From a virus: DNA of 64,000 nucleotides. Under the pieces are notes generated by a model. The model saw nothing but the letters and a program-made list of their open reading frames with translations. It was not told the origin of the DNA and ran no database searches. The position numbers and the translations under genes were made by a program. Location: the IMG/VR virus record IMGVR_UViG_3300026097_000876, positions 62,001 to 126,000 of that record; one strand, given 5' to 3'. Of this stretch, positions 15,507 to 64,000 are shown piece by piece (positions within the stretch are counted from its first letter, which is position 1; each line of letters begins with the position of its first letter).

Positions 15507-15536
15507 ATTATAAAGCCTTATGCCATTTGTTGTCAA
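15507..15536 (-). promoter_or_regulatory. Sigma-70 type promoter for gp41
   Basis: TTGACA (15536-15531), 18 bp, TATAAT (15512-15507), then six bases and the ATG at 15500; no room for a Shine-Dalgarno site. Confidence 0.75.
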
Positions 15537-25087: not shown

Positions 25088-26327
25088 GTATAAATTTCCT
25101 CTGACTCCTACTCCAGTATCCTTCAGATACCTTGTCGTTGCATATAATTTGTAAATCGCATTGTTGCGAAAATGCTGTTACATGATTAAAACGTAAACTC
25201 CTAGAATCGTAATTAACTACACAATTAGGAACCCATCCTGATTTAATTAAAGGTTTAGGAAGTTTACTACTATTAATATACACTATTTTTGTATTTTCTG
25301 CAACTGGATTATTAAGTTTCTTTTGTTTTACATATTCGTTAAATGGATCAGAACCGTCTAGTCTAAACAATACAGATACGTCTTCAGAGTTTATAGAATA
25401 TTTTAAAGAATTATACGTTTCTACTAATTTATCAAATGCGTTATTTTCATCAAGTACAATTAGTATTGGAAATCTTTTTAATTCGGTTACACTAGATATA
25501 ATTTGATCAAAATTAAATTCATTATTGATTACTATTTCAGGATTATCTCTATTAATTATGATCTGAGACAAAGTTGAGTACTCTCTAATATATTGATTAA
25601 TATTATCAAATGAATGTAAACCATATAAGTACCTTCTTTCGTAATATAATACTATGTTATCTTTAGGATCGCCTATTGTTTTTAACAAATAGTTTACAGC
25701 ATTATCAGGTAAGTTTTTAATTTTATAATCATAAACTCCTGGAATGTACTCTTCTTTATTTTCATAATAACCTAAAAGAACATTGTATGCATCTAATATT
25801 TCTTGCTGTATTTCAAATTTGTGTTCGAATCGTTTAGCAATTTGCATTAGCTTAAACAAGTTTTCTGCATTTACTGGGAAGTGATGCGTGTGCTTATCAT
25901 ATTGTGTATTACGTAACGGATTTAAGTTTTTAATCTCTTGTACACGTTTAATAATTTTATTAGAAAAAGGAAATCTAATTGCTAAAAATTCTTCGTTATT
26001 TCGAGACACTATTCTAAGCCAGTGAGAGCGATCTATTTCTCTAAGGCCGTATTTTTTAATTTTAGAAATTGCTAAAACATCAATGTTTTTTTCGTTAAAC
26101 TGATCTGCATAATCATTAGTTAACTTTTCTTTAACTAGTGCATATTGTCTATCAGTCATCGCAACACCTTTAGACAATTGCCTAGCAATGCTAATTAAAA
26201 TAGTTGCATCGTTTTGTTTTAGATGAAATCCAAAATCTTCATAAGAAGTTTTTCCTTGTTTAGGAATTCTAACACCAGTTAGTAATGTTAGACAGTCCTC
26301 GCAAGTCGTAGGTTCTAGTACATTCAT
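25074..26327 (-). CDS. Large protein coupled to UvsW, function unknown
   Basis: 417 residues. N-terminal pair CEDCL may bind metal; the middle has a basic helical segment (FSNKIIKRVQEIKNL) and HTHHFPV; the C-terminal half has alternating hydrophobic strands (FPILIVLDENN) suggesting a Rossmann-like or inactive helicase domain. No Walker motif. Its overlap with uvsW and own promoter suggest a partner or regulator of UvsW. The start is six bases after a sigma-70 -10 box, hence leaderless. Confidence 0.7.
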   Translation of the reverse strand: MNVLEPTTCEDCLTLLTGVRIPKQGKTSYEDFGFHLKQNDATILISIARQLSKGVAMTDRQYALVKEKLTNDYADQFNEKNIDVLAISKIKKYGLREIDRSHWLRIVSRNNEEFLAIRFPFSNKIIKRVQEIKNLNPLRNTQYDKHTHHFPVNAENLFKLMQIAKRFEHKFEIQQEILDAYNVLLGYYENKEEYIPGVYDYKIKNLPDNAVNYLLKTIGDPKDNIVLYYERRYLYGLHSFDNINQYIREYSTLSQIIINRDNPEIVINNEFNFDQIISSVTELKRFPILIVLDENNAFDKLVETYNSLKYSINSEDVSVLFRLDGSDPFNEYVKQKKLNNPVAENTKIVYINSSKLPKPLIKSGWVPNCVVNYDSRSLRFNHVTAFSQQCDLQIICNDKVSEGYWSRSQRKFIHVSV

Positions 26328-26333
26328 AATAGT

Positions 26334-26362
26334 ATTATACGATACTATAGTTTAGAAGTCAA
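26334..26362 (-). promoter_or_regulatory. Sigma-70 type promoter for the uvsW operon
   Basis: TTGACT (26362-26357), 17 bp, TATAAT (26339-26334), six bases, ATG at 26327. Confidence 0.78.
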
Positions 26363-27190
26363 GCGTTTAAGTGGTAAACCTGATGCAATTTCTTCTACAG
26401 TCCATTCAGTATGAGCGTAGTCGTTTAGCCATTGTTGCCTGTCAGGTTGGGGAGGATTGTTTATGTTGGTAAGACTCTTAATACTTACGTCCCATGCTAG
26501 GCTTGATTGTGATGTATATGCCGGTACACCTTCTAAGACGCTGTGTATGCCTGGGTTAGACGTCCAACTAACAGTACAGTATATGTCGTTGAAATTCATA
26601 TCGAAGTCGTCGTATGTGTCTTTTAATTGTATAGGTTCTTGCCTGTACACGTTCCTATATTGTCTTTCGATTGCTTCTAGTCTACATCTTGGATGTGCTC
26701 GAAATATAATAGGACGATCTGTGTGTGCTTGTACGTTTTCGATAGTGTCCATTACCCATCGACTCATACGTGGTTGATTGCGCCACTGTTCGCTCTTTTC
26801 GTGTTGTCCTGCTATTAGAACATAATCGCCGTCGGATCTCCAAGGCTTACAAACCAGTCCCAAGCTATCAGCCCTAGTCCTATCATTGTTTTGCTCACCA
26901 AAGTAAGCATCTCTGTTAATTCCATTTAATCCTACCTTCCATGTTGTTCCACGTTTGATACCACCTACTTCTAAGACAACCACCGGTTTGGATCTGGCTC
27001 TAGCGGCTTCCCAAATAGCTTTGTTTCCAGACATACGACCATTCCAAAGAACGCTCCAAATAACATCAACGTCGGCACTAGGATCATTGTCAACACAATC
27101 ATAGCCAAGAGACTCAGCACCGCTAACAAAAGCGTCAAACACAGGTCGGCTGTTGAGTGCTCCATATTGTCTCCAAAGGCTAAACTTCAT
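26345..27190 (-). CDS. Capsule-type glycosyltransferase-like protein (paralogue A)
   Basis: 281 residues. The C-terminal half carries the KpsC/LipB-like pattern: IIFRAHPRCR, then TVSWTSNPGIHSVLEGVPAY and DRQQWLNDYAHTEWTVEEIASG. The same layout occurs in three more genes of this island (28007, 28935, 39203). It probably transfers or binds an activated sugar. Last gene of the sugar island; overlaps the gene before it by 11 bases. Confidence 0.68.
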   Translation of the reverse strand: MKFSLWRQYGALNSRPVFDAFVSGAESLGYDCVDNDPSADVDVIWSVLWNGRMSGNKAIWEAARARSKPVVVLEVGGIKRGTTWKVGLNGINRDAYFGEQNNDRTRADSLGLVCKPWRSDGDYVLIAGQHEKSEQWRNQPRMSRWVMDTIENVQAHTDRPIIFRAHPRCRLEAIERQYRNVYRQEPIQLKDTYDDFDMNFNDIYCTVSWTSNPGIHSVLEGVPAYTSQSSLAWDVSIKSLTNINNPPQPDRQQWLNDYAHTEWTVEEIASGLPLKRLTSKL

Positions 27191-28019
27191 TCCAGTACGC
27201 TTCTGTTCTATTTACCATTAAATCTTTAGACAAACTTTTTCCAGAATTTTTTCGACCACCTTTCATGTGATCAATCCATTTTCCAAGTTCGCTATTAATT
27301 AACGGGTGACCACCTCCGCCTGTCTTAGCGGTGTTGTTGTAAATATTAGCACTATAATCGTATGACTGGAAATCTTTATATTTGTTCAATAAATGTCCGA
27401 ACACATAACTGTCATGCCATTCTTCTAATGTGAAGATTCCGTTGTCTGCATCTTCATACATAAGTTCAAAATCCTCTAAGAAACTATGACACACAGGATG
27501 ATTTAGATTCATTCCGTAAAACCCACACTCCGGCCATGTTTGTGATCCTTTGCCTCGGCCAACGTATGTAATGTATGCACTATTAGGAAGCAATTCTTTA
27601 AACTGTTCATAACTCCAGTCACTGTGTACATATGTATCCGCATCCATCCATACACACCAGCCCGTAGACCGCGCACAAGCGTCGTACACAGCATAAGTTT
27701 TGTTAGCGAACCGTATAGCGTCCCATTTAAATTCTTTGTGCCAGTCGCGTGGCCTACGTGCTTTAATTGCATCAGGAGGGATGCCATTTGCCTTAGGATC
27801 ATCTTTCCATCGTTCTTTAAATGCTGTTAGTTTAGGTAGATGTTCTTTTGCATCTAGTACAGTGATACGATCGTCATCTACAACAGGTGTACAATCTTCT
27901 GTATATACTAACAATTCAATACGTGAATCTACACGTTTACTAAAACTATCTAAAAATCTTTGACCATATAATTCTAATCCAGGCTTGTGAAATGTTGTTA
28001 CTACTGTTATTTTTTCCAT
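27180..28019 (-). CDS. Glycosyltransferase with GT-A fold
   Basis: 279 residues from MEKITVV at 28019. Early Rossmann-like strand (ITVVTTFHKPG), DxD motif in VWMDADTYVH, and acceptor-side Gly/Trp segments (GSQTWPECGFYGMN). A nucleotide-sugar glycosyltransferase; donor and acceptor unknown. Overlaps both neighbours by about a dozen bases. Confidence 0.75.
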   Translation of the reverse strand: MEKITVVTTFHKPGLELYGQRFLDSFSKRVDSRIELLVYTEDCTPVVDDDRITVLDAKEHLPKLTAFKERWKDDPKANGIPPDAIKARRPRDWHKEFKWDAIRFANKTYAVYDACARSTGWCVWMDADTYVHSDWSYEQFKELLPNSAYITYVGRGKGSQTWPECGFYGMNLNHPVCHSFLEDFELMYEDADNGIFTLEEWHDSYVFGHLLNKYKDFQSYDYSANIYNNTAKTGGGGHPLINSELGKWIDHMKGGRKNSGKSLSKDLMVNRTEAYWNEV

Positions 28020-28948
28020 GCATATTCTCTCATATGTTTCCAGCATTCGCCGGATCTTAATTCATCTAATGTCCAATGACTCATCGCAAGTCTTCTAAGC
28101 CATGCTTCTCTGTCAAACTCAAAATTTGGATTTTCAATATTTTTAAGATTTGTATTTGCCACATCTCTAGCTTGACTGCGTTTAGGATCAATTACAAAAA
28201 TTGGAACACCTTCAATAGCGGCAATTACCGCCGGACTGCTATTGTAACTAATCACAGCGCATGCATCATGTAAGTCTTTTAACAAAGAACTAGTCGGAGA
28301 TGAAATTTCTACTTTATGTCCTATTGCTTTGAGCTGTTGAATGTGTTTGTCAATTTTTTTGTCACCTGGATGAAATCGTACAAGGATACGTTTATCTGTA
28401 AATTTTCTTAAATTTTGTAACAAGGGATGTAACCAATTAATAATTTTTAATCCGTCCATACTCCATCCACCATCACGTTGACAAGTAATCAGAATATAAT
28501 CACCATACTTTTTCCAAGGTTTGAGTTGTAGTCCTAATCTATCTCGCAACTTGCCCCAACGTGCAGGATCAATTTTATCGTCACAGTATTCTCCCGTGGT
28601 TGGAAAAATACCATCATAGCTGTATCTTAAATATGATTTAGTATTTCCAGGATCGTATGCTAAAAATAAGTTACTGTCAGCAATAATAGTTCTACCTCCT
28701 AATTCAGATTGCGAAGATAATACTCGACGGCGTAAATCTAAATGAGGTACATTTTTACTACCTGGATGAACAAACCCTTGTAATATACCAACATCTGCTG
28801 GCTCGTATTGAAACGTATTAATTAGTTGACCTTTATCTTCTAATGAACGCACACCTTGAATAAAATACTCTAAAAGTTTTGGTTTTTCTTGATTCTTATT
28901 TCCAGGTGGTATTGCTTTCATATAAGCATTAACTTTAAAAGGCCTCAT
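28007..28948 (-). CDS. Capsule-type glycosyltransferase-like protein (paralogue B)
   Basis: About 313 residues from MRPFKV at 28948. Shows the paralogue pattern most clearly: ILVRFHPGDKK, AVISYNSSPAVIAAIEGVPI, IENPNFEFDREAWLRRLAMS, HWTLDELRSG. Compare genes at 26345, 28935 and 39203. Likely glycosyl transfer on a cell-surface or virion glycan. Confidence 0.68.
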   Translation of the reverse strand: MRPFKVNAYMKAIPPGNKNQEKPKLLEYFIQGVRSLEDKGQLINTFQYEPADVGILQGFVHPGSKNVPHLDLRRRVLSSQSELGGRTIIADSNLFLAYDPGNTKSYLRYSYDGIFPTTGEYCDDKIDPARWGKLRDRLGLQLKPWKKYGDYILITCQRDGGWSMDGLKIINWLHPLLQNLRKFTDKRILVRFHPGDKKIDKHIQQLKAIGHKVEISSPTSSLLKDLHDACAVISYNSSPAVIAAIEGVPIFVIDPKRSQARDVANTNLKNIENPNFEFDREAWLRRLAMSHWTLDELRSGECWKHMREYAWKK

Positions 28949-29807
28949 CGTATAATCCTTTTTCTTCAATCATTTTTACTACACTTCCGCTTCCTAATTC
29001 TGGTACTGTATATTGACAGTACGCTAAGAAATGTAATAGTTCAATAAATTGTTCTTCTGGGGGGTAATAAGGATCTTCAATATTGGATAGGTCTTTATTA
29101 GCAACTTGGTCGACACAAGATGGCGCCATAGTAAACGCAGGAATACCATAATGCATAGCTTCAAGAGCTGCCATACTTTGATAGGTTACTACCGAATGAA
29201 TCTGTTCTCTAAAACACTGTGCTGCCACACTATTATCTTTAATGCGTTCAAATCTTAAACCTTTATCTCTAATAATAATAGGACGATCTGTGTGTTTTTT
29301 AATTTCAGCAATTGTAGAGTTTAACCATTCTTGTTTAGTAATATTATAAAACTGACAAGGCTTTTCTGACGGAGTAACAACTAAGATAGGACCGTTTTGT
29401 TTAGACTGATCTTTTTTGCCGTTGTATTGCATATAAGGAGCAACTTTGACTAATTTTTCAAATCTATCACCTGGCATACTTTTGTATTTTGTATGCTGAA
29501 TATTATTTTTTACAACTCTATAAAAAATTTTCTTTTTCATTAAGTTGCCCATATAACCGTTATCAATATAATAAAACGGTCGACCAGTTTCCCAACATTT
29601 ATAAATTTCTTTACGTTTAGTCATGCTTCTGAATGCTACTGGAATTTCTATCGGCCAGGGTGATTGAGAAATTTTACTTGCAATTTCTTTTCGATCTATA
29701 ATCCTTGCATTAGTGCCCGCACCCCAATGTTTTAAAATTTCATCATCGCCGTTAATCATAAGCATAGATGGCTTATCATTTTTCCCTAGCATATCAAATG
29801 TACCCAT
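28935..29807 (-). CDS. Capsule-type glycosyltransferase-like protein (paralogue C)
   Basis: 290 residues with FYYIDNGYMGN, IIIRDKG, SVVTYQSMAALEAMHYGIPA and YTVPELGSGS, the same set as the gene at 39203. The DNGYxGN block is shared only by paralogues C and D, so these two are the closer pair. Confidence 0.66.
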   Translation of the reverse strand: MGTFDMLGKNDKPSMLMINGDDEILKHWGAGTNARIIDRKEIASKISQSPWPIEIPVAFRSMTKRKEIYKCWETGRPFYYIDNGYMGNLMKKKIFYRVVKNNIQHTKYKSMPGDRFEKLVKVAPYMQYNGKKDQSKQNGPILVVTPSEKPCQFYNITKQEWLNSTIAEIKKHTDRPIIIRDKGLRFERIKDNSVAAQCFREQIHSVVTYQSMAALEAMHYGIPAFTMAPSCVDQVANKDLSNIEDPYYPPEEQFIELLHFLAYCQYTVPELGSGSVVKMIEEKGLYDEAF

Positions 29808-30481
29808 TATACCTCCATCATCTCAAATAATTCGTTTTTCCACAGTTCGTTAAACTCACAGTTACGATAGTTTTCAAACCAAGGGCCGCCTTCTGTGTAG
29901 TGTATTAGTTTAGGAGTTTCGATATCGTCATATACTCCTACTAGGTAGTTCCATGTGTGATCTAGTTTGCCAATCTCTTCGTCCTTGAGCCAACTGAATC
30001 TATGGAAGTATGCTCCGTTTAGTTCTGGATCGTTTACCATATCCTGTGTTAGTCTAGCGTTACTAGGGTGCGCACAGTTAAATAGTACAGCACTAGACCA
30101 GTTCTTGCGTGGATAGATGGTTTGCTTTTGTCCGTCCATCTTCATACCTTCTTTAGGAGTGTAATCATGTTGCACACACATGACAGCGTACTTGTCATCT
30201 GCTTGATCAAACAACTCTTTAATATCTGTTGTAAGGATCATGTCACAATCTATAAACAAAGCCCAGCCTTTGAAGTTAGCCAATTCAGGTACTAAGAAGC
30301 GTGTAAATGTAAATTCAGTACTTGCTAACTTATCCACAGGGCGTGTGTACCAACCTGCATCACGCAATTCTTGTTGTACTAGAGGACGTACTTCTGCTGT
30401 TGGTGATCTACTTATAATACTATGCTTGCACACTTGATATGCAATGTCCTCTCGAGGATCGTAACCTACAAATACTTTCAT
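29807..30481 (-). CDS. Glycosyltransferase, GT8-like
   Basis: 224 residues from MKVFVGYDPRED at 30481, whose ATG overlaps the stop of the gene before it. DxD motif in LFIDCDMI, with the GT8-type opening VGYDPRE. Probable retaining transferase using a nucleotide sugar. Acceptor unknown. Confidence 0.75.
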   Translation of the reverse strand: MKVFVGYDPREDIAYQVCKHSIISRSPTAEVRPLVQQELRDAGWYTRPVDKLASTEFTFTRFLVPELANFKGWALFIDCDMILTTDIKELFDQADDKYAVMCVQHDYTPKEGMKMDGQKQTIYPRKNWSSAVLFNCAHPSNARLTQDMVNDPELNGAYFHRFSWLKDEEIGKLDHTWNYLVGVYDDIETPKLIHYTEGGPWFENYRNCEFNELWKNELFEMMEV

Positions 30482-31251
30482 TAATCTCTTCTTTCTATAT
30501 CTTCTTCTGTTAGAGTGTCGCCCAACCATACTTCTATAACTTTAGCAGTTGTATCGCCCAAATTGGTTGCTTTGTGCCATGTGTTTTTTGGAATGTCAAT
30601 ACTATAACCAGAAATAAGATTTTGTATTTCAATTCTTCCATCTGCATGTTCTAGTTTCATTTGAATAGTGCCTTCAACAACGTGCCAGTGTTCACTACGT
30701 TCAAAATGTCTTTGGTCACTTAGTGCATTACCAGCATCAAATGCAAGTTGCTTAACTTGCCAGCCTTCGCCTTTGTCTAATACAGTATATCTACCCCAGT
30801 CACGTTCTGTAGTGGGTTGACTCCATTCTTTGAGTATCCAGCTGCTTGAGTTTTTCTTATCTTCGCCTCCGACAGCAAATGCAAACTCTACATCTTGATG
30901 CTCTCCGTATATAGTGTATTCTGGAGTAGTAGTATTTGTTCTGTCGCCGCCATTAGCAAATACTACTTTCCAACTACTGCCTTTGGTTTGTAGTACTTGG
31001 CCTATGGCACTAAGTGCAGTATTGTCGTCGTCGTTAAAACCGATAACTTCGTCAACACATGCAAGTTCTTTAATGATTGCTGCACGTTCTTCAAACGGCA
31101 TAAATGGTCTACCTTTTTTGCGTGTAAGCCACTCGTCTGAATTGACACCTACTACTAAATGATTGCCGAGTTCTTTTGCTGATTTAAAATAGGCGATGTG
31201 CCCTGAGTGTAAGGGATCAAAGCCGCCAGTAACCAATACCACTTTATTCAT
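30481..31251 (-). CDS. Sugar nucleotidyltransferase fused to a cupin domain
   Basis: 256 residues. Residues 1-140: cytidylyltransferase-like fold with the nucleotide-binding signature GGFDPLHSGHI and the later motif for RfaE2/HldE-type adenylyl transfer to heptose-1-phosphate or similar. Residues about 150-250: a cupin like the C-terminal domain of mannose-1-phosphate guanylyltransferase (HFERSEHWHVVEGT, NTWHKATN). The fusion suggests activation of a sugar phosphate followed by isomerisation or binding. A heptose-kinase-like gene occurs at 63284. Confidence 0.85.
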   Translation of the reverse strand: MNKVVLVTGGFDPLHSGHIAYFKSAKELGNHLVVGVNSDEWLTRKKGRPFMPFEERAAIIKELACVDEVIGFNDDDNTALSAIGQVLQTKGSSWKVVFANGGDRTNTTTPEYTIYGEHQDVEFAFAVGGEDKKNSSSWILKEWSQPTTERDWGRYTVLDKGEGWQVKQLAFDAGNALSDQRHFERSEHWHVVEGTIQMKLEHADGRIEIQNLISGYSIDIPKNTWHKATNLGDTTAKVIEVWLGDTLTEEDIERRD

Positions 31252-31256
31252 ATAGA

Positions 31257-31264
31257 TATTTATA
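31257..31264 (-). promoter_or_regulatory. Late-type promoter motif abutting a start codon
   Basis: TATAAATA with five bases before the ATG at 31251. If used, transcription would begin at about the start codon. Weaker evidence than elsewhere because the gene lies inside an island. Confidence 0.4.
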
Positions 31265-31271
31265 TTAGCAC

Positions 31272-31931
31272 TTATTTGCTAGTAGTTGATTTGATACCTT
31301 GAACTTTTGTAAAGTAAGGTTTATATGTACGTAACCAAGGACATAATTGTTTACACATTATAGCGTCGTTGGGCCACCATCCGATTGTATCTTGTATTTT
31401 TATAATTTCTTTGGCAGCCTCTGGTTTAATAATATAAGCACTATGTCCAGGAAGTCCTTGAGGAATAGATTTGTCTGTGACCCAAGGAACCTGTTGTTCT
31501 CCTGAATTATCTAGCGCATCGTACAACTTACTATTAAATGTTGCATGATCAGGATTATTGATACTAATTGCGCCGCCAGAGAACTCAAAAGGTTTAAATT
31601 GTCTAGTAAAAATTGCATCGTGCTCTAATATCATAATAGTTTCATTAAGCTCGACACTCTTCTCCCATAGTTTATAATGACTTCCGGCGGCAGCTATACG
31701 TTTAGACATGTCGTATGTCTTGTATGCTTTTAATATCATGCCAGTCGTAGGACAAACTGATTTTTTATTATATGGCCATTTCCAATTTATCTTCCACATA
31801 GTATTAGGAGTAATTGCTGTAAATTTTTCTACTTCTATTTGAGAGTTTGTATCTGTAATAGATTGTATACAGCGATCTGCATGACTTTGACTATCGTCAT
31901 GATCATCTATTGTAATTATGTACGCTTTCAT
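31272..31931 (-). CDS. Glycosyltransferase, GT25-like
   Basis: 219 residues: short opening strand AYIITIDD, a basic middle, MILEHDAIF (E-x-D in place of the usual DxD) and PGHSAYIIKPEAA, typical of LPS GT25 enzymes. Overlaps the methyltransferase gene upstream by 4 bases. Confidence 0.72.
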   Translation of the reverse strand: MKAYIITIDDHDDSQSHADRCIQSITDTNSQIEVEKFTAITPNTMWKINWKWPYNKKSVCPTTGMILKAYKTYDMSKRIAAAGSHYKLWEKSVELNETIMILEHDAIFTRQFKPFEFSGGAISINNPDHATFNSKLYDALDNSGEQQVPWVTDKSIPQGLPGHSAYIIKPEAAKEIIKIQDTIGWWPNDAIMCKQLCPWLRTYKPYFTKVQGIKSTTSK

Positions 31932-32503
31932 TTAGATAACACATAAACTCTACAAGGTACTTTGCCCTTTAATCCAGTTGATTCAAAAACTGATTCTAAT
32001 TGTAATCCTGTGTTTTTAAACAGTTGTCGTAATTCGTCGTCATTAATTTCCACAGGGTCCCATGGTCTTGCATTATTATCACTAGGCCCGTAGCCGTGTT
32101 CTAAATACAATTTACCGTTTGACGAAAGTTGATCTGCCCAAACTTTAATAGTTCTAACAGGGTCAAATGCATGATCAAATGCATTTGAATAAACAACATC
32201 AAAATAGCCAAGCCAGTCTTCGCGTATATTATTAAAATCATGTTGTACTGTCATTGGAAATTTGCTTGCGGTGTGTGATACTTCAGTTCCAATAATCTCA
32301 GCTTCTGGAAAATTTTCTTTAAAATAAAATTGTTCTGCGGCATTACGAGTACCATGACATAATATTCTTGTTGCCTGTTTTTTATCTTCACAGATTTTTT
32401 TAATTGTTTTCTTTTCTACATAAATCATTTTAAGTTTAGCAACATTTGCTTCGACTTGATTTTCTAAATACTCTTCATAATTTTTATATTCGTAAACTTT
32501 CAT
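31928..32503 (-). CDS. SAM-dependent methyltransferase
   Basis: 191 residues with a class I fold: weak motif I region (IIGTEVS), motif-post I, FDVVYSNAFDHAF (motif II) and NGKLYLEHG (motif III). Likely modifies a sugar or small molecule. Poor motif I glycine content lowers the confidence that it is active. Confidence 0.65.
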   Translation of the reverse strand: MKVYEYKNYEEYLENQVEANVAKLKMIYVEKKTIKKICEDKKQATRILCHGTRNAAEQFYFKENFPEAEIIGTEVSHTASKFPMTVQHDFNNIREDWLGYFDVVYSNAFDHAFDPVRTIKVWADQLSSNGKLYLEHGYGPSDNNARPWDPVEINDDELRQLFKNTGLQLESVFESTGLKGKVPCRVYVLSK

Positions 32504-32514
32504 TGTATTTCCTT

Positions 32515-33201
32515 TTAAGTTATTTTTTGTACAAACCCGTGAACACTAGTATGTATGTCTTTGTACGGTTCGCTTAGTATTTGATACCATCCCCATTCGT
32601 TAGGGTATAATTTATGTTCTTTAACTAATTTGCGTAATAATGCATGATCAAAATGTTTTCGATGATGAATTAAAAAATCATAAGGCAAAAATCCATACCA
32701 GTCGTCTTCAGGATTGTCTTTGTTAACTTCTGTCCATTGTCCTGAGCCAAACTGACTGCCGCGATTTTCTCTAGTCATAAATCCTACCGGGCCAACTTCA
32801 TATGCTTTGCGCAACCAATGATTTAAATCTACTTGTCTGTCTATTTTAGTATTCCAGTCAACTCTTATAATTAGATCATGATGTGAAGGTATTTTTCTAA
32901 TTAAATCCGAGTGTGCTAAAATAGGAACTATTCCAAAATAAAATTCATCTTTTAATTTTCCCGACTCAACATATTTTTTATATTTTCCATGTTTAGAATG
33001 AGGAGTAACCTCCATAGGATGATAATGCCATTTCGGATAGTGCATTGTACTTAATCTGTTGTGTAAATTTTCAGGCACTAAATTTGTTCGATTTGTGAAC
33101 GTGTGATAATAGAAATTACAGCCAGGAATTTTGTGCTGAAGCTGTTCAACAATTTTGCTGTCTTTATCATTCACACCAGAAATACAAATTGCAATATTCA
33201 T
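32515..33201 (-). CDS. Putative glycosyltransferase
   Basis: 228 residues. Opens with a Rossmann-like strand (NIAICISGVND), has LIIRVDWNTKI that may correspond to a DxD-type acidic site, and a C-terminal aromatic region. Weak match; assigned mainly from its location in a glycosyltransferase island. Confidence 0.5.
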   Translation of the reverse strand: MNIAICISGVNDKDSKIVEQLQHKIPGCNFYYHTFTNRTNLVPENLHNRLSTMHYPKWHYHPMEVTPHSKHGKYKKYVESGKLKDEFYFGIVPILAHSDLIRKIPSHHDLIIRVDWNTKIDRQVDLNHWLRKAYEVGPVGFMTRENRGSQFGSGQWTEVNKDNPEDDWYGFLPYDFLIHHRKHFDHALLRKLVKEHKLYPNEWGWYQILSEPYKDIHTSVHGFVQKIT

Positions 33202-33908
33202 TTAAAAAACCATTTCTTTAGATTGGCAGCAAAGAGCGCATGACTGTTGTGTCCAGGATGGGGATTTGGTTTATCTAATGCTTCATCTATGTAAAAATTT
33301 GTTTCCCATATAAAGTTTTTTAGATTAACATTTTTTACATAAAAATTATCAAAATATTCTTTGTGTTTTTTTGGAATCTCATGTTCGGGAAAAACATGAA
33401 AACTTTTTATTCCTTTGTTTTTAAGGTATCCGTGAACATAATTTATTCTAATTAATTGATCAAAAATTGTGTCAAACTGTTCGTAGTAATTTTCGTAATA
33501 AGTTTTTACTGTTTTTATAAATTCAGTTTTTTCTGACTTGTGTCTTCTCCAAAATGTTAAGGGCATATTTTGTTTTATAAATGCTGGTAGCATATGTATT
33601 CTAATGTTTTTTTGATCTTCAAATATAGTCTGCCTATTAAAGTTAGACCAAAGTATTACTACTACAGTGTTTTTTGTGTAATGGGGATATTCTATTATAG
33701 ACTTAGTAATCATTTTATTAGACGAGCCGGGTATTGCACAATTATCTACAGAAGTAAAGTTAACTAAATCTTTTAACTTTTCGGGCCAAGCGTATTTACT
33801 AGGATACGGGCCTTCTGAGCGACTGTCCTCGCCTAAGCAATCTTTTAGTCCGTGACCGTATGTATGACTGCATCCAAACGTAACTAATTTGTAATTTGAC
33901 CAAGCCAT
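33198..33908 (-). CDS. SGNH-hydrolase-like protein
   Basis: 236 residues: block I VTFGCSHTYG, block II AIPGSSNK with NFNRQ as block III, and a C-terminal HPGHNS with the expected catalytic His (NPHPGHNSHA). Same architecture as the gene at 21054 and the gene at 10220. Probably acts on sugar acyl groups. Confidence 0.68.
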   Translation of the reverse strand: MAWSNYKLVTFGCSHTYGHGLKDCLGEDSRSEGPYPSKYAWPEKLKDLVNFTSVDNCAIPGSSNKMITKSIIEYPHYTKNTVVVILWSNFNRQTIFEDQKNIRIHMLPAFIKQNMPLTFWRRHKSEKTEFIKTVKTYYENYYEQFDTIFDQLIRINYVHGYLKNKGIKSFHVFPEHEIPKKHKEYFDNFYVKNVNLKNFIWETNFYIDEALDKPNPHPGHNSHALFAANLKKWFFK

Positions 33909-34570
33909 GTGTTTTTCCTTGCACTTGTATCGAAATCAAAGTTCCAATACTCAATATCTTGTTTGTACCAGTCTGCTACAATTTGTATTGTTTGAGGCGT
34001 GTATATTTCTTTATAAGAATCTATTAGTCCTGTAACATTTCGAGAACGTGGCATAGTTGCTAAATTTAAATATTTTGTTAGGTCAGTGTCAAGATTTTCT
34101 TGTCTTAATATATCGCATCGAACATTGTTATCTTCGTCAATGACATAATCAAATTGATTGTACCATCCTCGTACAGCACGATGCCACATAAATTCCATTC
34201 CGCCCCATTTGTGCCGCTCTTCTAAAAATGCTTCAAAGGAAGATATGTCAGCATAACCAATTGGAGAATTTTTTTCAATTTCGATAACTTTTTTAGCAAA
34301 GTAAAAACGAGAAGCAACTCTTGCCCACGGATTTCGAACTATAGTAAATGCTGTATGTTTTTCTCTCAAAGACACATTAAAATCTCTCCATCGTGCATGT
34401 GCGTAGCCGTGGTGATCTCCAAGAGCATTCATAGTACTAAGAAGATTAGCTGTGTACTCTTTACTAATATGTGTTTTAGGACTAGCATCGATTATTTTAT
34501 TTTTTAAATCTTTGTTAAGTCTAATTGTACATCCTGCATTTTTTGGTATGTGTATAAAAAGTTTTTTCAT
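33884..34570 (-). CDS. Sulfotransferase-family protein
   Basis: 228 residues. LFIHIPKNAG at the N-terminus is the PAPS 5'-phosphosulfate binding loop, and TIVRNPWARVASRF is the 3'-phosphate binding motif. Probably sulfates a glycan. It needs host PAPS; no PAPS synthesis gene is in the window. Confidence 0.85.
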   Translation of the reverse strand: MKKLFIHIPKNAGCTIRLNKDLKNKIIDASPKTHISKEYTANLLSTMNALGDHHGYAHARWRDFNVSLREKHTAFTIVRNPWARVASRFYFAKKVIEIEKNSPIGYADISSFEAFLEERHKWGGMEFMWHRAVRGWYNQFDYVIDEDNNVRCDILRQENLDTDLTKYLNLATMPRSRNVTGLIDSYKEIYTPQTIQIVADWYKQDIEYWNFDFDTSARKNTWLGQITN

Positions 34571-34947
34571 TAGTATTTTGTATAATTCTTTTCTTCTATT
34601 ATAGACGAATTTGTTATTGTGTTGATCATTTTTTTAATTTCTGCTCTATTGTCATTTTTTATATAAACCTGCCTAGCAAGTTCTACAAACTTAGGACCAA
34701 AGTCCTTTGTGATTTCACATTTACGTTTATCATTTTCTATATTCCAAAGTGCTAGATTTATTTCATATAATTCGTGCACTAGGTGATTTACTTCTGCGTC
34801 ATCAGTAAATGCTTTACTTTCTAGTAAAGACAATTCTTTACTAACATTTATTAGTTGCTTTTCGTCTGTTAACTTTTCCTGTTTGATTTTTAATATTGTA
34901 ATTTTATCAAACAGCTCACCGACAGATACTTCAATCGATACCATCAT
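34570..34947 (-). CDS. DUF6165-like protein
   Basis: About 125 residues from MMVSIEVSVGELFDKITILKIK at 34947. The opening SVGELFDKITIL and the heptad helix that follows match DUF6165, found with LPS synthesis genes; function unknown. The beginning overlaps the end of the heptosyltransferase-like gene by 17 bases. Confidence 0.72.
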   Translation of the reverse strand: MMVSIEVSVGELFDKITILKIKQEKLTDEKQLINVSKELSLLESKAFTDDAEVNHLVHELYEINLALWNIENDKRKCEITKDFGPKFVELARQVYIKNDNRAEIKKMINTITNSSIIEEKNYTKY

Positions 34948-35692
34948 TAATTTTGATCCTATTGTCTTTAGCCCTGTGCATATGATGACTCCAACGATCC
35001 TTAGCACTTGTTGTATATATGTGAATGTTCTCTGGGGCAAAGTATATTTGTGACATGTGCAAAAATCCACTATCAACGCCAACATGATAAGTTGCTTTAG
35101 ACATTGCATATGCAATATGTTTGAGACTATCTTTTAATAGTATATTTTTAGATTCGCCGCCTACAACAACTATTTCATAGTCTTTATACTTGTCTAGTAT
35201 TGCTTGTCGTAGATTAGGCTTAATCATACGTTTTTTTGATGTACTATCAAACTGTACAGTAATAAATTTTTTAGGGAGTTTAATATCTTGGTATTCTGCT
35301 GCGATTTGTGGAAAATGTTTAAGATATTGTGTTGAGTCAATACCTTGTGCAGGTTCAAAACGTTGTGGATAATCAGTATATATATGTGCTTCTGCGTCGT
35401 ATCCTTGAGACCTTACATAGTCTACAAAATCATTATTGTCTTTGGGTTCGAAATCTAAGTGAGGCATAATTGAAATATTTTTATTAGGAAATAGGTCTAG
35501 TATTTCAGGCCAACTTTCAGGCTTATGTCTATTCCATTGATATTTTGTAAGGTGTAAAGTTACTGGGGTGTTTTCTATTAGTCCGTAGTTGTATGCTAGT
35601 AATACACTGTGTATTCTATCACCTAAACCAGGAGCACCGTAGTGAAAGTTTTTCTTTACGGTGCTATATGCTCTCATAGCTATATGTTTCAT
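34931..35692 (-). CDS. Heptosyltransferase-like protein (GT9 style)
   Basis: 253 residues. GAPGLGDRIHSVLLAYN near the N-terminus and GVDSGFLHMSQ near the C-terminus are characteristic of GT9/GT-B heptosyltransferases and related enzymes. Together with the nucleotidyltransferase at 30481 and the kinase at 63284 it completes an outline for heptose transfer, by inference. Confidence 0.68.
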   Translation of the reverse strand: MKHIAMRAYSTVKKNFHYGAPGLGDRIHSVLLAYNYGLIENTPVTLHLTKYQWNRHKPESWPEILDLFPNKNISIMPHLDFEPKDNNDFVDYVRSQGYDAEAHIYTDYPQRFEPAQGIDSTQYLKHFPQIAAEYQDIKLPKKFITVQFDSTSKKRMIKPNLRQAILDKYKDYEIVVVGGESKNILLKDSLKHIAYAMSKATYHVGVDSGFLHMSQIYFAPENIHIYTTSAKDRWSHHMHRAKDNRIKINDGID

Positions 35693-35694
35693 AA

Positions 35695-36321
35695 TTACAC
35701 TCTAATTTCAAACTGAGTCATTCCGTGTCGATAAAAATTATTACGTAAATTATGGTTATCAACAAATTGGTTTACAGCTCGCGTTACTCCTGGTTTACTC
35801 CAAGTAGCTTTAGGCCATTTAAAATCATCTCCTAATATTAATCCTCCAGGTTTGACTTTTTTATATGCGTTTATAAGATCAGCATAACACCCTTCATAAG
35901 AATGATCGCCATCGATATAAATCCAATCTAAATGATTATCTTGACAGGAATCAAACCAAACAGTAGACGATTGTCTTATAATTTTAACTTCTGGATTATT
36001 AGCAAATTTTGTTTTGACTTTTTGATATACATTGTCATAGTACTTGTCAAACTCTTTTTCTAATTCCGCAGGATCCTTAATTTCAGGAGATATATTGAGA
36101 AGTTTTTGATATTTCCATAACCACTTATCATATGTCATTTCACTATTATCTTTGAACGGGTCAACTGAATATGGATCAACTAGATATAATTTTTTTAACT
36201 TTTTCTTTGCAAATTCAAATGAAGTATTTCCCATCCATACTCCTATTTCAGCGCCTACTGTGTCTTTTTTAATTAGGTGTAAAATATTCGGTGCATCGCT
36301 ATTTCTTTCTTTTACCATCAT
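35695..36321 (-). CDS. SAM-dependent methyltransferase, cephalosporin hydroxylase-like type
   Basis: 208 residues: motif I GAEIGVWMGNTS, then YLVDPYS, and LDWIYIDGDHSYEG with the catalytic Asp and His of the Methyltransf_24-like group. Probably O-methylates a sugar. Overlaps the gene upstream by 4 bases. Confidence 0.78.
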   Translation of the reverse strand: MMVKERNSDAPNILHLIKKDTVGAEIGVWMGNTSFEFAKKKLKKLYLVDPYSVDPFKDNSEMTYDKWLWKYQKLLNISPEIKDPAELEKEFDKYYDNVYQKVKTKFANNPEVKIIRQSSTVWFDSCQDNHLDWIYIDGDHSYEGCYADLINAYKKVKPGGLILGDDFKWPKATWSKPGVTRAVNQFVDNHNLRNNFYRHGMTQFEIRV

Positions 36322-37115
36322 AAAGGGTGTTCTCCAATTTCTTTCATCAAGGTTAGAATATTTTCTCCCCTTTGTGGTAATAAATCTTTTAAGAAAAAAT
36401 GAATAAAATATGCTTCGGACAAATAATTGTCGTCAATACCTTTGTATAATCCATTCCATCTCCAGTCCATGTTCAGCGATGGAATATTTTCTTTTTTTAT
36501 CCACCAGTTGAGTAACATTTGATCTGTAGACCATTTTCGATATCCTACGCCATCAACAAAATCCTTAAATTCAGGACGTTCTAAAAATTCTTTAGGAGTT
36601 TGATTTTTTAAGTAAGGTTTAAATTTTTCACAATTAATTACCATCATACCCATATTATAAAATTCAGCGCCTGTGTTGTTCCATTTCCAATCAACATCAG
36701 TACATGGCTCAAACGCTGCTTTAGAATACTTTTTAATTTTAGACTTATATTTTTTAGAACAAGGTAGCTCTCGTTCAACAACTGCACCAAATGCATATTC
36801 TCCAGTTAGGTCTTTAAAAATATTTGGAGCATTATGTTTAATAAAAATATCACTATCTATAATTGCAATTTGGTCATAATCTTTAATGTACTGAAATGCA
36901 TTTTCTTTTTCGTAGATCGGCAAGTACCCTAGTCGCTCGACCGCTTCTTTACTACGGCCCGTTCTGTCCATATCGGGTCTAATTTTTAAAAGAGGTTCTG
37001 TTTGCACAATATGTGTAATGTTGTATGCAGCGCAATATTTTTCAACGCTTTGTATACAATGAGTATACAGTTTACTGGGTGTTCCAACAGCAACTTGGTA
37101 GATCATTCTCTTCAT
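36318..37115 (-). CDS. Glycosyltransferase, GT8-like
   Basis: 265 residues with DxD motif IAIIDSDIF and a typical GT8 C-terminal AYFIHFF. Donor and acceptor unknown. Overlaps the GT25-like gene upstream by 4 bases. Confidence 0.73.
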   Translation of the reverse strand: MKRMIYQVAVGTPSKLYTHCIQSVEKYCAAYNITHIVQTEPLLKIRPDMDRTGRSKEAVERLGYLPIYEKENAFQYIKDYDQIAIIDSDIFIKHNAPNIFKDLTGEYAFGAVVERELPCSKKYKSKIKKYSKAAFEPCTDVDWKWNNTGAEFYNMGMMVINCEKFKPYLKNQTPKEFLERPEFKDFVDGVGYRKWSTDQMLLNWWIKKENIPSLNMDWRWNGLYKGIDDNYLSEAYFIHFFLKDLLPQRGENILTLMKEIGEHPL

Positions 37116-37690
37116 GATAAATCCTTAGTAAAACTAACTTTTGTTTCGTATGTTACTTTGTTATACTTATCAAATTGCATATTAACAATTCCGTCACATA
37201 ACATCCAATCTGCTGGCATAACGCCGTATGTGTCTACCCAATTTAAAATTTTTCTAGCACCTGTTGGAGTAATTCGATATGCTCGGGCTCCCTCATACCA
37301 ATTTCCAGCCGGGATAGGTTTAGCTTTTTTAAAGCCTTCAAATTTATATACATCGCAATCTGTATACTTGCCGATAGGTTTTTTAAATACTACGTCGTGT
37401 TCAAATATACATATTGACGTATTAGTTTCTGCGCATTCCTTCCATAATAACCATTGACTTAGAAAACACCCTTGTGTTCCAGGACGTTGCAAAAGTTTTT
37501 TTGCTTTTTTACTTTGATTAGTTACCGATAGATTATAGTCTGCTAGTCCAGTAATTAATCCGTTAACACCTGGTCGTAATTCTAGATTCCATCCGTGATG
37601 TGTGCCAGTTTGAATAGCACGAGATGCCATTTGAACGCTTTGATCATAATCTGGAAGATAGATAACATAACCTCTATCTTCCACTAACAT
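37112..37690 (-). CDS. Glycosyltransferase, GT25-like
   Basis: 192 residues: opening VIYLPDYDQS, SICIFEHDVVF, ARAYRITPTGARK and ADWMLCD match LPS GT25 enzymes. A second gene of this type lies at 31272. Overlaps the gene upstream by 17 bases. Confidence 0.72.
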   Translation of the reverse strand: MLVEDRGYVIYLPDYDQSVQMASRAIQTGTHHGWNLELRPGVNGLITGLADYNLSVTNQSKKAKKLLQRPGTQGCFLSQWLLWKECAETNTSICIFEHDVVFKKPIGKYTDCDVYKFEGFKKAKPIPAGNWYEGARAYRITPTGARKILNWVDTYGVMPADWMLCDGIVNMQFDKYNKVTYETKVSFTKDLS

Positions 37691-38537
37691 TTTCTAAGTT
37701 CCTAATTTCTCGCTCTATTTTAGTACGCCAATGATCTGGAAGCCACCTAAGTTGAGCTGATTTAAATCGCCTATCTTCTTTTTTATTACCTTTGCCTGTA
37801 CTAAAAATGTCATCCTTTTTTTGACCCCATGCATTCCATTTATACGGAATTTTAGAATATGTTTTTCCTAACCGTGTCCACTCCGCCATTGTATCTTTTA
37901 ATACATCTTGATCAATAAACCAATAACATCCTTGTTCAAACCCTTTTATTAAATTGTTACTAAACAAATTTCTGAATTCTATACCTTCTTGATTTGTCCC
38001 TGGTGTTAATGCACTAGCAATAAAAATTCCTTGATCTTTTGGCTTAGGCATTACTCCTACGTATCTAGTAAGATTTTCAAAGTCTCGTAAATGAAATCCA
38101 TTTTTTAAAATGCTATCGCAATCAATTTGTAATATATACTGATTGCTATTTTTAAATAATTCGTTTAATCTCATAAAACGAGCACTAGCTAAATAGGTTC
38201 TTCTTGCAACATAGTCTACATCTGAAGTTTTAAAAATATCAAAACCTTCTTTCATTTTTTTATTATTTTTTGGCAAATTATTATAAAAGTCTTGTGTAAC
38301 AGTTTCCCAAGTATAGGTAAATTTAAAATTATTAGAAAGAAATTTTAAAACATCGTGATCTATATTTCCTTCGTCAATGATATGGCAATGTACGTGTACC
38401 CAAGAAAGGGTTCGATTTATACTCTGCTGTAGTGCATAACCGTGCCTATCAAAATATTTGTAGTCGCAACTAAAATATACAACATAGTTATTTTCTTTAG
38501 GACACAGAGTGCCATTTAATTTTGGTAGATTAAACAT
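37674..38537 (-). CDS. Glycosyltransferase with DxD motif
   Basis: About 287 residues from MFNLPKL at 38537, preferred over the codon 12 residues upstream because it leaves only an 8-base overlap. YVVYFSCDYKYF opening strand and ILQIDCDSIL (DxD). GT-A fold assigned; specificity unknown. Confidence 0.7.
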   Translation of the reverse strand: MFNLPKLNGTLCPKENNYVVYFSCDYKYFDRHGYALQQSINRTLSWVHVHCHIIDEGNIDHDVLKFLSNNFKFTYTWETVTQDFYNNLPKNNKKMKEGFDIFKTSDVDYVARRTYLASARFMRLNELFKNSNQYILQIDCDSILKNGFHLRDFENLTRYVGVMPKPKDQGIFIASALTPGTNQEGIEFRNLFSNNLIKGFEQGCYWFIDQDVLKDTMAEWTRLGKTYSKIPYKWNAWGQKKDDIFSTGKGNKKEDRRFKSAQLRWLPDHWRTKIEREIRNLENVSGR

Positions 38538-39210
38538 CGGGTGCCATCCTTGGTCGATATCCAATAATTGCATTCTTTTCTCCGCGGCCGACTTTTCTAA
38601 TCATTCTATACCCTAGAGACATTAAAATTTCTCTAATGCTTTCTTCAGTGTATCCATAACGTCGGGGATGTTGTTTTCTTTCGTATAAAATAATCGGCTT
38701 GCACCTTTCAATAGTTTCTAAGCCTCCGATTGCAACAAACGGCTCATATCCTTCAGCATCAATTTTAATAAAGTCTACATCTCGAAAATTAAAAAAGTCT
38801 AAAGGTTTTATAGCAATGCTACCTTTGTCTTGACTGTTAGGTTTTACATGTGTGCCAAAACTTTTGTTAGTAGTAACAATATCAACAGTTTCCTCTTTTC
38901 TGCCTACGCCAACTGGATATGTTGTTACGTTAGTGACCTTTTTATGTGCAAGGTTATGCACTAAGCATTGATATATTTTTGGATTAATTTCAAAAGCATG
39001 TATATGTTCAAATGTTTTTGACATTTGATATGAAGTAATTCCTACATGTGCTCCTACATCAATAGCAACTCTTAGTTTTTCACAATAGCTCATTGCTATC
39101 TGTAGTTCCAAGTTTTGGTAATCTTCTATTTTACCGACTCCTTGTTTTTTAGCACTTTTTAAACAAATATCTCCGCTTACTGTGCGCCACCCGTCAATTT
39201 CATTATACAT
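38530..39210 (-). CDS. FkbM-family methyltransferase
   Basis: 226 residues: motif I AIDVGAHVGITS, HAFEINPK, VDFIKIDAEGYEP and a basic C-terminus. FkbM enzymes methylate sugar hydroxyls, so a modified glycan is indicated. Confidence 0.85.
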   Translation of the reverse strand: MYNEIDGWRTVSGDICLKSAKKQGVGKIEDYQNLELQIAMSYCEKLRVAIDVGAHVGITSYQMSKTFEHIHAFEINPKIYQCLVHNLAHKKVTNVTTYPVGVGRKEETVDIVTTNKSFGTHVKPNSQDKGSIAIKPLDFFNFRDVDFIKIDAEGYEPFVAIGGLETIERCKPIILYERKQHPRRYGYTEESIREILMSLGYRMIRKVGRGEKNAIIGYRPRMAPDV

Positions 39211-39982
39211 TATTTTCTACCTGATATTTAAATGTGCATTTCCATGCTGTTCCATTTGCAAATTCGTCTCTAGAAAATTGACTCCATGCAATATGTTCTA
39301 GCATCTCTTGACGATCAAAGTTTGTTTGATTTTGCCAATGTTGCACTGCACTTTGGCCTAGTATTTCTACTGGAGTGCCAAGACAAAGAGATTCAACAGC
39401 AGCCATGCTATGATATGTTATTACTTTTTTTGCTTCTTTTATCATAGGCAATATTTCTTTGAATCTTTGTTTACGTTTACCCTGCTTTTCTCTAATAATT
39501 AGCGGAACATCTAAATTATTATATTTTTCAATAGTTTCTTCTCGCCAAGTATTATAGTTTTTACCTAAGTATTTAAAAATATTACTAGACTGTGACATAA
39601 CTAAAAGATTATATTTTCCTTTTAGATTCCAGTCTTGCCATAAACTATTATCTATTTCTAACTTTGATATTCTGCTTGTACTAACCGGGTATGGTTTAGT
39701 ATTTTGTAATGAGTTGTAACTAATACGATAATAGTACGGAGTTTTATAAAGATGATTACCGATATAACCATTATCAATATGGAAAAAATTTAATTTTTTA
39801 TTTTTACTAATTTCGTCAAACACCCAGTCATCAAATGGATGACTGAATGCTAAGTATCTGTTCGGATCGATTTGGTCTTGCGAATTAATTGTTATAGTGT
39901 CAAAGTTATTGTATAGATAACTAAAGACTTGTCCTCTCAGATTTTTTGAGTTTTCGGGTACTTGAAATTTATAAGGATGCAT
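39203..39982 (-). CDS. Capsule-type glycosyltransferase-like protein (paralogue D)
   Basis: 259 residues. FFHIDNGYIGN, LIIREKQGK, KVITYHSMAAVESLCLGTPV and FDRQEMLEHIAWSQFSRDEFANG align with the other three paralogues. First gene of the sugar island, starting inside the end of the UvsY-like gene. Confidence 0.66.
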   Translation of the reverse strand: MHPYKFQVPENSKNLRGQVFSYLYNNFDTITINSQDQIDPNRYLAFSHPFDDWVFDEISKNKKLNFFHIDNGYIGNHLYKTPYYYRISYNSLQNTKPYPVSTSRISKLEIDNSLWQDWNLKGKYNLLVMSQSSNIFKYLGKNYNTWREETIEKYNNLDVPLIIREKQGKRKQRFKEILPMIKEAKKVITYHSMAAVESLCLGTPVEILGQSAVQHWQNQTNFDRQEMLEHIAWSQFSRDEFANGTAWKCTFKYQVENNV

Positions 39983-63284: not shown

Positions 63285-64000
63285 TGATTAGAGTATATGG
63301 CGATATTATGCTGGACAAATGGATCATTGGCAATGCCAATCGAATTAGTCCAGAAGCACCTGTTCCTGTCTTGCACGAAACAGAGCAAAAACATTGTCCT
63401 GGTGGTGCTGGTAATATTGCAATTAATATTGCAAGCCTTAACGAAAATGTAGGAGTATACGGAACTATTGCTCCTGATTATGAAGGCAACTTACTTGCTG
63501 AATGTTTTAGAAATTATGAAAAAATTGCATTCAATGTTACTACAGACTCTAAAATTACTACTACTAAAAATAGACTTGTTGGTCAAGGTGGACAGCATAT
63601 TTTGCGCTGGGACAGAGAAGAAAAATATCAAAATTCAAATGCATTCAAAAAATTATTAGCAGATGTGCAATCACAAGATGTTGTTTGTGTAAGTGATTAT
63701 AATAAAGGAACAATTCAAAAAAATACAATTAGTGATTTGTTAGATAAAGGTTGCACTGTGTTAGTTGATCCTAAACAAGATGCTGAAACATATAGAGGTG
63801 CATTTTTAGTTAAGCCAAATATGAAGGAATATAATTCATGGTTTGGAGAGTTTAAAAAAGAAAACGCAATACTAAAACTTAAAGAGTATAATTGGACATA
63901 TCTTGTAGTTACAGACGGTGCTAATGGAATTCATGTACTAAAAGATGATTTAACTTATCGTCACTATCAAGAACCTGCACAAGAAGTAGCTGATGTTGTA
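63284..64000 (+). CDS. Heptose-7-phosphate kinase-like protein (HldE/RfaE1 domain), cut by window end
   Basis: At least 239 residues, still open at base 64000. PfkB-family start GDIMLDKWIIGNANRISPEAPVPVL is diagnostic of RfaE1, followed by CPGGAGNIAINIA and VDPKQDAETY. The adenylyl part of HldE is not in this piece, but a nucleotidyltransferase of the matching type is at 30481. ADP-heptose or a related sugar may be made. Confidence 0.88.
   Translation, partial: MIRVYGDIMLDKWIIGNANRISPEAPVPVLHETEQKHCPGGAGNIAINIASLNENVGVYGTIAPDYEGNLLAECFRNYEKIAFNVTTDSKITTTKNRLVGQGGQHILRWDREEKYQNSNAFKKLLADVQSQDVVCVSDYNKGTIQKNTISDLLDKGCTVLVDPKQDAETYRGAFLVKPNMKEYNSWFGEFKKENAILKLKEYNWTYLVVTDGANGIHVLKDDLTYRHYQEPAQEVADVV

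Follow-up and report, generated by a model that had tools for sequence, protein, structure and literature searches.

A constant core and an exchangeable front in a sugar-enzyme island at the uvsY-uvsW site of an uncultured T4-like jumbo phage

The window analyzed here is a stretch of 64,000 nucleotides comprising bases 62001-126000 of the 261,806-base virus record IMGVR_UViG_3300026097_000876, which belongs to an uncultured, aquatic T4-like jumbo phage infecting bacteria; its UvsX has ~61-66% identity to the UvsX of jumbo phages in culture, among them Vibrio 2.275.O and Agrobacterium Atu_ph07. Between the recombination genes uvsY and uvsW this phage carries an island of sugar-enzyme genes which, in a comparison that took in ~250 environmental contigs, consists of two halves: a constant core of six genes next to uvsW and a hypervariable front that extends from the core to uvsY. 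The core appears, from promoter-like elements in the DNA, to be expressed late. In content the island is a phage polysaccharide cluster of an already known kind, as in cyanophage P-SSM2; what is new is its fixed site between uvsY and uvsW, the architecture of constant core and variable front, and the apparently late and probably leaderless control of the core. We tentatively read the island as a late-acting glycan machine that would decorate a virion protein of the phage with a variable outer structure, an interpretation to which we give just short of an even chance.

Relatives of the nucleotidyltransferase-cupin fusion (NT-cupin), the core gene nearest to the front, were fetched from viral contigs, and the loci were then anchored independently on UvsW and UvsX. 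These loci are the nearest relatives returned and possibly in part redundant, and therefore the frequencies reported are valid for this clade only. The recurrent gene order is UvsX-UvsY-(variable stretch)-NTcupin-GT8-GTB3-GTB2-GT27180-GTB1-25074-UvsW, in which GTB1 to GTB3 are paralogous transferases, GT27180 is a transferase of GT-A type, and 25074 is a conserved open reading frame (ORF) flanking the island. Looked for in other phages, as the first-pass annotation of this DNA had advised, the core is kept in order in 57 of the 60 loci anchored on UvsW whose upstream sequence spans at least 4.2 kb: GTB1 and the GT-A gene are each present in 57, GTB2 in 56, GT8 in 55, NT-cupin in 44, and GTB3 in 38. 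The stretch from UvsY to NT-cupin, in turn, varies from none to 7.3 kb among 128 relatives and measures ~8.7 kb in the window. Over 102 distinct loci it contains 298 ORFs, which fall into 71 families (31 with a single member), and even pairs of loci with 90-95% UvsX identity have a mean front-family overlap of 0.20, with 38% lacking any family in common. Most of the window's own front order recurs in one relative (L181), and a fourth paralogue of the transferases, GTB4, follows UvsY in six (L178, L180, L181, L188, L195, and L231).

The same site is found without the island in four relatives (L169, L170, L173, and L175), in which the 25074 homologue and UvsW come immediately after UvsY, while among cultured jumbo phages it holds one gene in Vibrio 2.275.O and CBB and several in Phosso. 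In the UvsW tree the loci bearing GTB1 form one side of a branch with support 97/99, recovered in 98% of bootstrap trees. One locus, L062, was labelled empty in that tree for want of GTB1 and yet carries other core genes; therefore the single origin holds strictly for GTB1, and the core as a whole has a less straightforward history. Homologues in other contigs exist for 18 of the 19 island ORFs, and the pairwise dN/dS values of ~0.04-0.46 against their nearest relatives, rough because dS was often saturated, would speak against decay of these genes.

Evidence for the timing of the core comes from comparison with known late promoters. The element TATAAATA is the late promoter of T4, located at -13 to -6 of the start site (PMC1524935), and the corresponding form in cyanophage S-PM2 is NATAAATA (PMC2984593). 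The record contains 23 copies of TATAAATA, 12 of which lie 8-120 nt upstream of a same-strand ORF of at least 90 amino acids, against 5.6% expected by position (P 7e-10). The genes behind such copies include those for tail sheath, baseplate-fibre connector, tail fibre, and baseplate hub, and we regard the element as a predicted mark of late genes in this genome. Its sole copy in the island directly precedes NT-cupin (table 1), and across the relatives the NT-cupin element lies at -13 to -6 of the ATG, in the register of a T4 late promoter. In 83% of 109 island loci TAAATA ends 4-6 nt before the NT-cupin ATG, versus 0-1% at the same spacing in other families and 3% of the ORFs of the phage's own genome (Fisher P 6e-49), and almost no Shine-Dalgarno-like sequence occurs at this spot (6%). 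If the T4 geometry is valid, the predicted +1 is therefore the A of the NT-cupin ATG and the message would be leaderless. Before the NT-cupin homologues of SAR11 and SAR86 TAAATA occurs in 0 of 71 cases, and it is absent also in the other phage settings of this gene; a general translation signal was rejected on these grounds, together with its absence before other families.

The core offers a further comparison in its GT-A gene, which is inverted in 63 of 112 loci. TAAATA lies within 60 nt upstream of the inverted gene in 38 of 39 distinct cases versus 2 of 43 co-directional ones, and within 80 nt upstream of GTB1 in 32 of 40 cases when this gene diverges from an inverted GT-A versus 1 of 29 otherwise. 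In L042 and L044, TATAAATA ends ~5 bases before the ATG of the inverted GT-A, the same leaderless geometry as for NT-cupin. The element at the start of NT-cupin may alternatively be a recombination site, but this would leave the inverted-gene cases unexplained. We also considered, and rejected, the possibility that the late element serves uvsW, as the unit of 25074 and uvsW has its own sigma-70-like promoter, found in 75% of 92 loci with at most one mismatch and in 90% with at most two (before other genes, 0-2% at the one-mismatch level); the late elements so belong to the sugar core. In most relatives the -10 box of that unit ends ~6 bases ahead of the start codon, and the transcript of the unit may likewise be leaderless.

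Folds were predicted for two of the core enzymes. The four ORFs starting at 26345, 28007, 28935, and 39203 (GTB1 to GTB4) have no Pfam match and are mutual paralogues of 28-30% identity; no Asp is invariant in an alignment (A1) that includes GTB1 and GTB3. An AlphaFold2 model of GTB1, built from 55 aligned sequences, best matches the β-Kdo (3-deoxy-D-manno-oct-2-ulosonic acid) transferases KpsC and WbbB (Foldseek E 8e-8), with Z 14.6 over 229 residues at 3.5 Å for KpsC and Z 12-13 for WbbB, the next unrelated fold being at Z ~10. By this model GTB1 would have a GT-B fold of the KpsC/WbbB type; its identity to these enzymes is 12-15%, and the R-x-HP-like motif, present by eye in GTB1 and GTB2, is not seen in GTB3 and GTB4. 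The model of ORF 27180-28046 fits GT6, the chlorovirus PBCV-1 protein A064R (Z 14.0), and glycogenin equally; A064R was rejected as a specific relative because BoGT6a and glycogenin score within 1 Z of it. Sequence-profile searches of the PDB with the GTB family, 27180, and 25074 gave best matches of a chance-like kind (a de novo TIM barrel; A064R at E 0.4). The core GT8-like protein is the most conserved enzyme of the island, with a mean column identity of 72% over 30 sequences.

Elsewhere in the genome there are homologues of HldE (E 9e-106), ADP-heptose 6-epimerase/HldD (E 4e-65), and GmhB (E 7e-39), none of which reaches its NCBI cut-off, while no SIS_2/GmhA was found in the record, so that three of the four steps of the ADP-heptose pathway are represented. 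Two of these genes are in a plus-strand run consisting of gp15, two tryptophan halogenases, HldE, the HldD-like epimerase, and a cupin. Together with the KpsC/WbbB fold and the GT25, GT8, and GT9-like enzymes, these homologues support the earlier impression that the island resembles lipopolysaccharide (LPS) or capsule assembly. In a second T4-like lineage (L079, L081, and L257) NT-cupin lies among genes for fibre, neck, gp15, and terminase. There (e.g. L257:5718-7998), among tail and neck genes, its neighbours are a 349-residue protein with no Pfam match and an apparent combination of tetratricopeptide repeats with an FkbM methyltransferase.

Beyond the computed gene content, architecture, promoter-like elements, folds, and selection, we infer the late timing, the donor sugars, the acceptor, and the benefit as follows. 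The core, with its activated-sugar enzyme, GT8-like and GT-A transferases and two or three transferases of KpsC/WbbB fold, would build a conserved inner oligosaccharide, probably from ADP-heptose supplied by the phage and possibly a Kdo-like sugar. Its transcription would fall in the late phase, driven by T4-type late promoters, and the foremost of these would yield a leaderless mRNA. The exchangeable front would then add variable outer sugars as well as methyl and sulfate groups, and the phage would in this way glycosylate its own particle. A virion protein is the most likely acceptor because the core is predicted to be late, the island has no predicted membrane-spanning component, and heptose genes lie directly behind gp15. 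Virion decoration was one of three options in the first-pass annotation and is the best-fitting of them, with the acceptor deduced in this manner. With less confidence we advance a broader proposition: Across a widespread clade of aquatic jumbo phages, virions would carry a capsule-like coat of heptose/Kdo-type glycan built by the phage itself, the inner part made by the late and partly leaderless core and the outer part, in serotype-like variation, by the exchanged cassette.

Several observations weigh against the decoration of virions. The enzymes KpsC, WbbB, HldE, and GT9 act on envelope polysaccharides in bacteria. Loci lacking NT-cupin have no element before GT8, and no late element belongs to the front itself, which overlaps with uvsY and may thus be expressed earlier. 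Moreover, a third lineage (L060 and L080) has NT-cupin among apparently metabolic genes, and the SAR11 and SAR86 homologues are not virion-linked; the latter (L262-L335, ~43-50% identical) occur as single genes, which in SAR11 lie next to polA and a transporter of the major facilitator superfamily.

Virion decoration remains the most likely function in our assessment, and remodelling of the host envelope a less likely one. The latter, in which the island would alter LPS or capsule so that late masking of receptors stops the progeny from re-adsorbing to the lysing cell or its debris, is an unlikely but serious competitor: the KpsC/WbbB fold, the ADP-heptose genes, and the GT9 and GT25 domains all suit it, and clusters of P-SSM2 type have been read as modifying outer polysaccharides (PMC7824862). 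Yet the island has no predicted membrane protein, flippase, polymerase, or polyprenol-phosphate transferase, and no hydrophobic segment of transmembrane type was found in the 18 island proteins scanned, all but DUF6165; a core constant across a diverse clade of phages would also be less expected if each host surface were the acceptor. A possibly earlier front could add superinfection exclusion to such remodelling. The superinfection block suggested initially is thus weakened for the core, as an early event, by the late-promoter elements, but not for the front that overlaps uvsY. Late timing favours virion decoration over early exclusion and over DNA modification, which we consider improbable. 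Phage glycosyltransferases often modify DNA bases, as in T4, and the island sits among recombination genes; against this stand the late elements and the absence of the thymidylate-synthase/hydroxymethylase family PF00303 from this record, in a search whose positive control matched, and from two other core-carrying records of 200.8 and 299.9 kb, even if a third of 357.6 kb has a strong match (E 2e-100). A search for TET/JBP gave no match, but neither did its controls. The initial suggestion of DNA modification consequently loses ground.

Hardly more probable is a secreted or intracellular small molecule derived from sugars, made together with the three tryptophan halogenases, the carbamoyltransferase, and the 2-oxoglutarate-Fe(II) oxygenase encoded elsewhere in the record. 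Such clusters have been proposed in cyanophages (PMC7824862), but about ten transferases of several types suit a polymer or oligosaccharide better, and the island yielded no gene for an assembly line or for export. By far the least probable explanation is that the island constitutes stuffer DNA for headful packaging or a silent acquired block, an idea raised for the LPS clusters of cyanophages (PMC3037559); it is contradicted by the dN/dS values well below 1, the conserved gene order, the promoter-like elements, and the lineage-wide presence. A recent silent acquisition, entertained from the start, therefore fails for the core, with its lineage-wide occurrence, signs of purifying selection, and promoter-like elements, whereas the front does turn over rapidly.

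The individual genes (table 1) were assigned with Pfam and PHROGs for domains and with blastp for paralogues. An uninterrupted run of sugar enzymes does fill 26345-39982, as the first-pass annotation had it, but as 19 contiguous minus-strand ORFs, from 39982 down to 26345 in the ORF list, rather than seventeen genes. Its immediate neighbours, given there as the uvsW and uvsX operons, are UvsY (39969-40424, phrog_231) on one side and, on the other, the 417-residue conserved ORF (25074-26327) lying between the island and UvsW (23624-25087). The junctions, described as gapless and mostly overlapping by 4-17 bases, range from 44-base overlaps to a 20-base gap, and the largest gap (31252-31271) is the site of the late-promoter element. 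For the at least eight glycosyltransferase-like genes of several types noted there, the analysis gives two GT25, two GT8, the four paralogues, the GT-A, and a weak GT9, and the sulfotransferase (Sulfotransfer_2), the NT-cupin fusion (nucleotidyltransferase plus MannoseP_isomer), and DUF6165 all have Pfam matches. Among the three methyltransferases proposed, Pfam recovers FkbM and Methyltransf_24/TylF; the third (31928) was recognized by eye and has no Pfam match, and the SGNH-like gene is based on inspection by eye and a sub-threshold match to DUF6071.

Table 1. Genes and promoter-like elements of the island and its surroundings, in window coordinates
Feature	Part	Coordinates	Strand	Basis and remarks
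HldE homologue start (heptose-7-P kinase/adenylyltransferase)		63284..64000	+	continues beyond window; downstream of gp15
KpsC/WbbB-fold-like transferase paralogue GTB4	front	39203..39982	-	blastp 30% to 28935-29807; 14-base overlap with uvsY
FkbM-type methyltransferase	front	38530..39210	-	PF05050 E 2e-14
Protein without Pfam or PHROG match	front	37674..38573	-	relatives recur in other fronts
GT25 glycosyltransferase	front	37112..37690	-	PF01755 E 2e-10
GT8 glycosyltransferase	front	36318..37115	-	PF01501 E 1e-5
Class I methyltransferase (Methyltransf_24/TylF)	front	35695..36321	-	PF13578 E 3e-14
GT9/heptosyltransferase-like	front	34931..35692	-	PF01075 E 0.0024, TIGR02193 E 3e-5, both below cut-off
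DUF6165 protein	front	34570..34944	-	PF19662 E 2e-13
Carbohydrate sulfotransferase-like (Sulfotransfer_2)	front	33884..34570	-	PF03567 E 6e-6; phrog_3347 E 6e-10
SGNH-like protein (by eye)	front	33198..33908	-	PF19547 DUF6071 E 8e-4, below cut-off
Protein without family match	front	32515..33201	-	homologues in L181, L133
Probable methyltransferase (by eye)	front	31928..32503	-	no family; no homologue among fetched loci
GT25 glycosyltransferase	front	31272..31931	-	PF01755 E 2e-13
T4-type late-promoter element TATAAATA, sole island copy		31257..31264	-	ends 5 bases before NT-cupin ATG at 31251
Nucleotidyltransferase-cupin fusion (HldE domain II-like + GMP/PMI-type cupin)	core	30481..31251	-	PF01467 E 1e-16; PF01050 E 2e-22; TIGR02199 E 2e-21
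GT8-like transferase	core	29807..30484	-	PF01501 E 8e-6
KpsC/WbbB-fold-like paralogue GTB3	core	28935..29807	-	blastp; alignment A1 shared with GTB1
KpsC/WbbB-fold-like paralogue GTB2	core	28007..28969	-	blastp; alignment A1
GT-A transferase (GT6/A064R/glycogenin-like fold predicted)	core	27180..28046	-	AlphaFold2 pLDDT (predicted local distance difference test) 91.2; fold matches
KpsC/WbbB-fold transferase GTB1 (predicted)	core	26345..27190	-	AlphaFold2 pLDDT 94.7; KpsC Z 14.6
Sigma-70-like promoter TTGACT-17-TATAAT of the 25074-uvsW unit	flank, outside island	26328..26362	-	-10 ends 6 bases before start codon
Conserved 417-residue protein	flank	25074..26327	-	retained in island-free relatives too

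Some other features of the record deserve mention. The SGNH-like protein of the island weakly resembles two further ORFs of the window, 10220-11023 and 21054-21782 (blastp E 0.004 and 0.002). The three tryptophan-halogenase homologues (E 1e-85 to 1e-95) are located at 60298-63284 of the window (two, directly after gp15) and at L086:13744-15210; a NolO/NodU-like carbamoyltransferase lies at 15508-16476 of the window, between genes for a DnaB-like helicase and a primase, and two adjacent carbon-nitrogen hydrolase genes of the nitrilase superfamily at 11020-12643, beside a DUF6065-like gene. Two of the fetched loci, L259 and L260 (PBPT01000082 and PBPT01000016), come from a Neomarinimicrobiota bin in which the present phage locus is complete, apparently phage contigs binned with the bacterium.

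The island has its nearest parallels in the LPS clusters of jumbo cyanophages such as P-SSM2, S-SSM7, and S-SM2 (PMC3037559; PMC7824862), likewise T4-like phages with many glycosyltransferases, HIGH-type nucleotidyltransferases, cupins, and PfkB sugar kinases in clusters that are polymorphic between relatives. Like those clusters, the island brings together, in one run of genes in a T4-like phage, several families of glycosyltransferases and sugar-nucleotide enzymes. Theirs, however, lie near hli03, phoH, and tRNAs instead of the uvsY-uvsW site, and here, unlike there, we find a constant core, a variable front, and late-promoter elements specific to the core. In 50,697 phage records, Megablast with the island gave no match and NT-cupin none covering 80% of its length; in this collection its nucleotidyltransferase domain comes closest to proteins of S-SSM7, S-SSM6a, and P-TIM68 (55-56% over half of the query), while the protein search with GTB1 returned no cyanophage match. 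No paper on this island was found in the library to which the literature search was directed. A more distant analogy may be drawn with PBCV-1, in which virus-encoded transferases and methyltransferases act on the virus particle, and whose capsid-glycosylation protein A064R has the same GT-A fold as predicted for 27180. Phage-encoded glycosylation of capsid and tail-tube subunits is attributed to mycobacteriophages, that is, different phages and hosts (Freeman et al. 2023, as cited in PMC12619734). The moraphages, aquatic jumbo phages that also have uvsW, include four glycosyltransferase orthogroups in their core genome; the available portion of that account describes no uvsY-uvsW island or late promoter (PMC12619734).

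In evolutionary and functional terms, the purpose of polysaccharide clusters in phages has been open since the cyanophage genomes, with stuffer DNA and functional roles both envisaged (PMC3037559). The clade described here constitutes a natural experiment on this question: It combines one genomic site, a single origin of GTB1 on the UvsW tree, a core with its own putative late elements, and a front that differs between near-identical phages, and therefore both the timing and the target of the glycan are directly testable. With a constant core that is predicted to be late and a front that is freely swapped, the virus may sugar-coat its particles, or the dying host, in many versions. If true, a particle in a sugar coat whose outer chemistry can be exchanged would have consequences for host range, receptor trapping, and defence.

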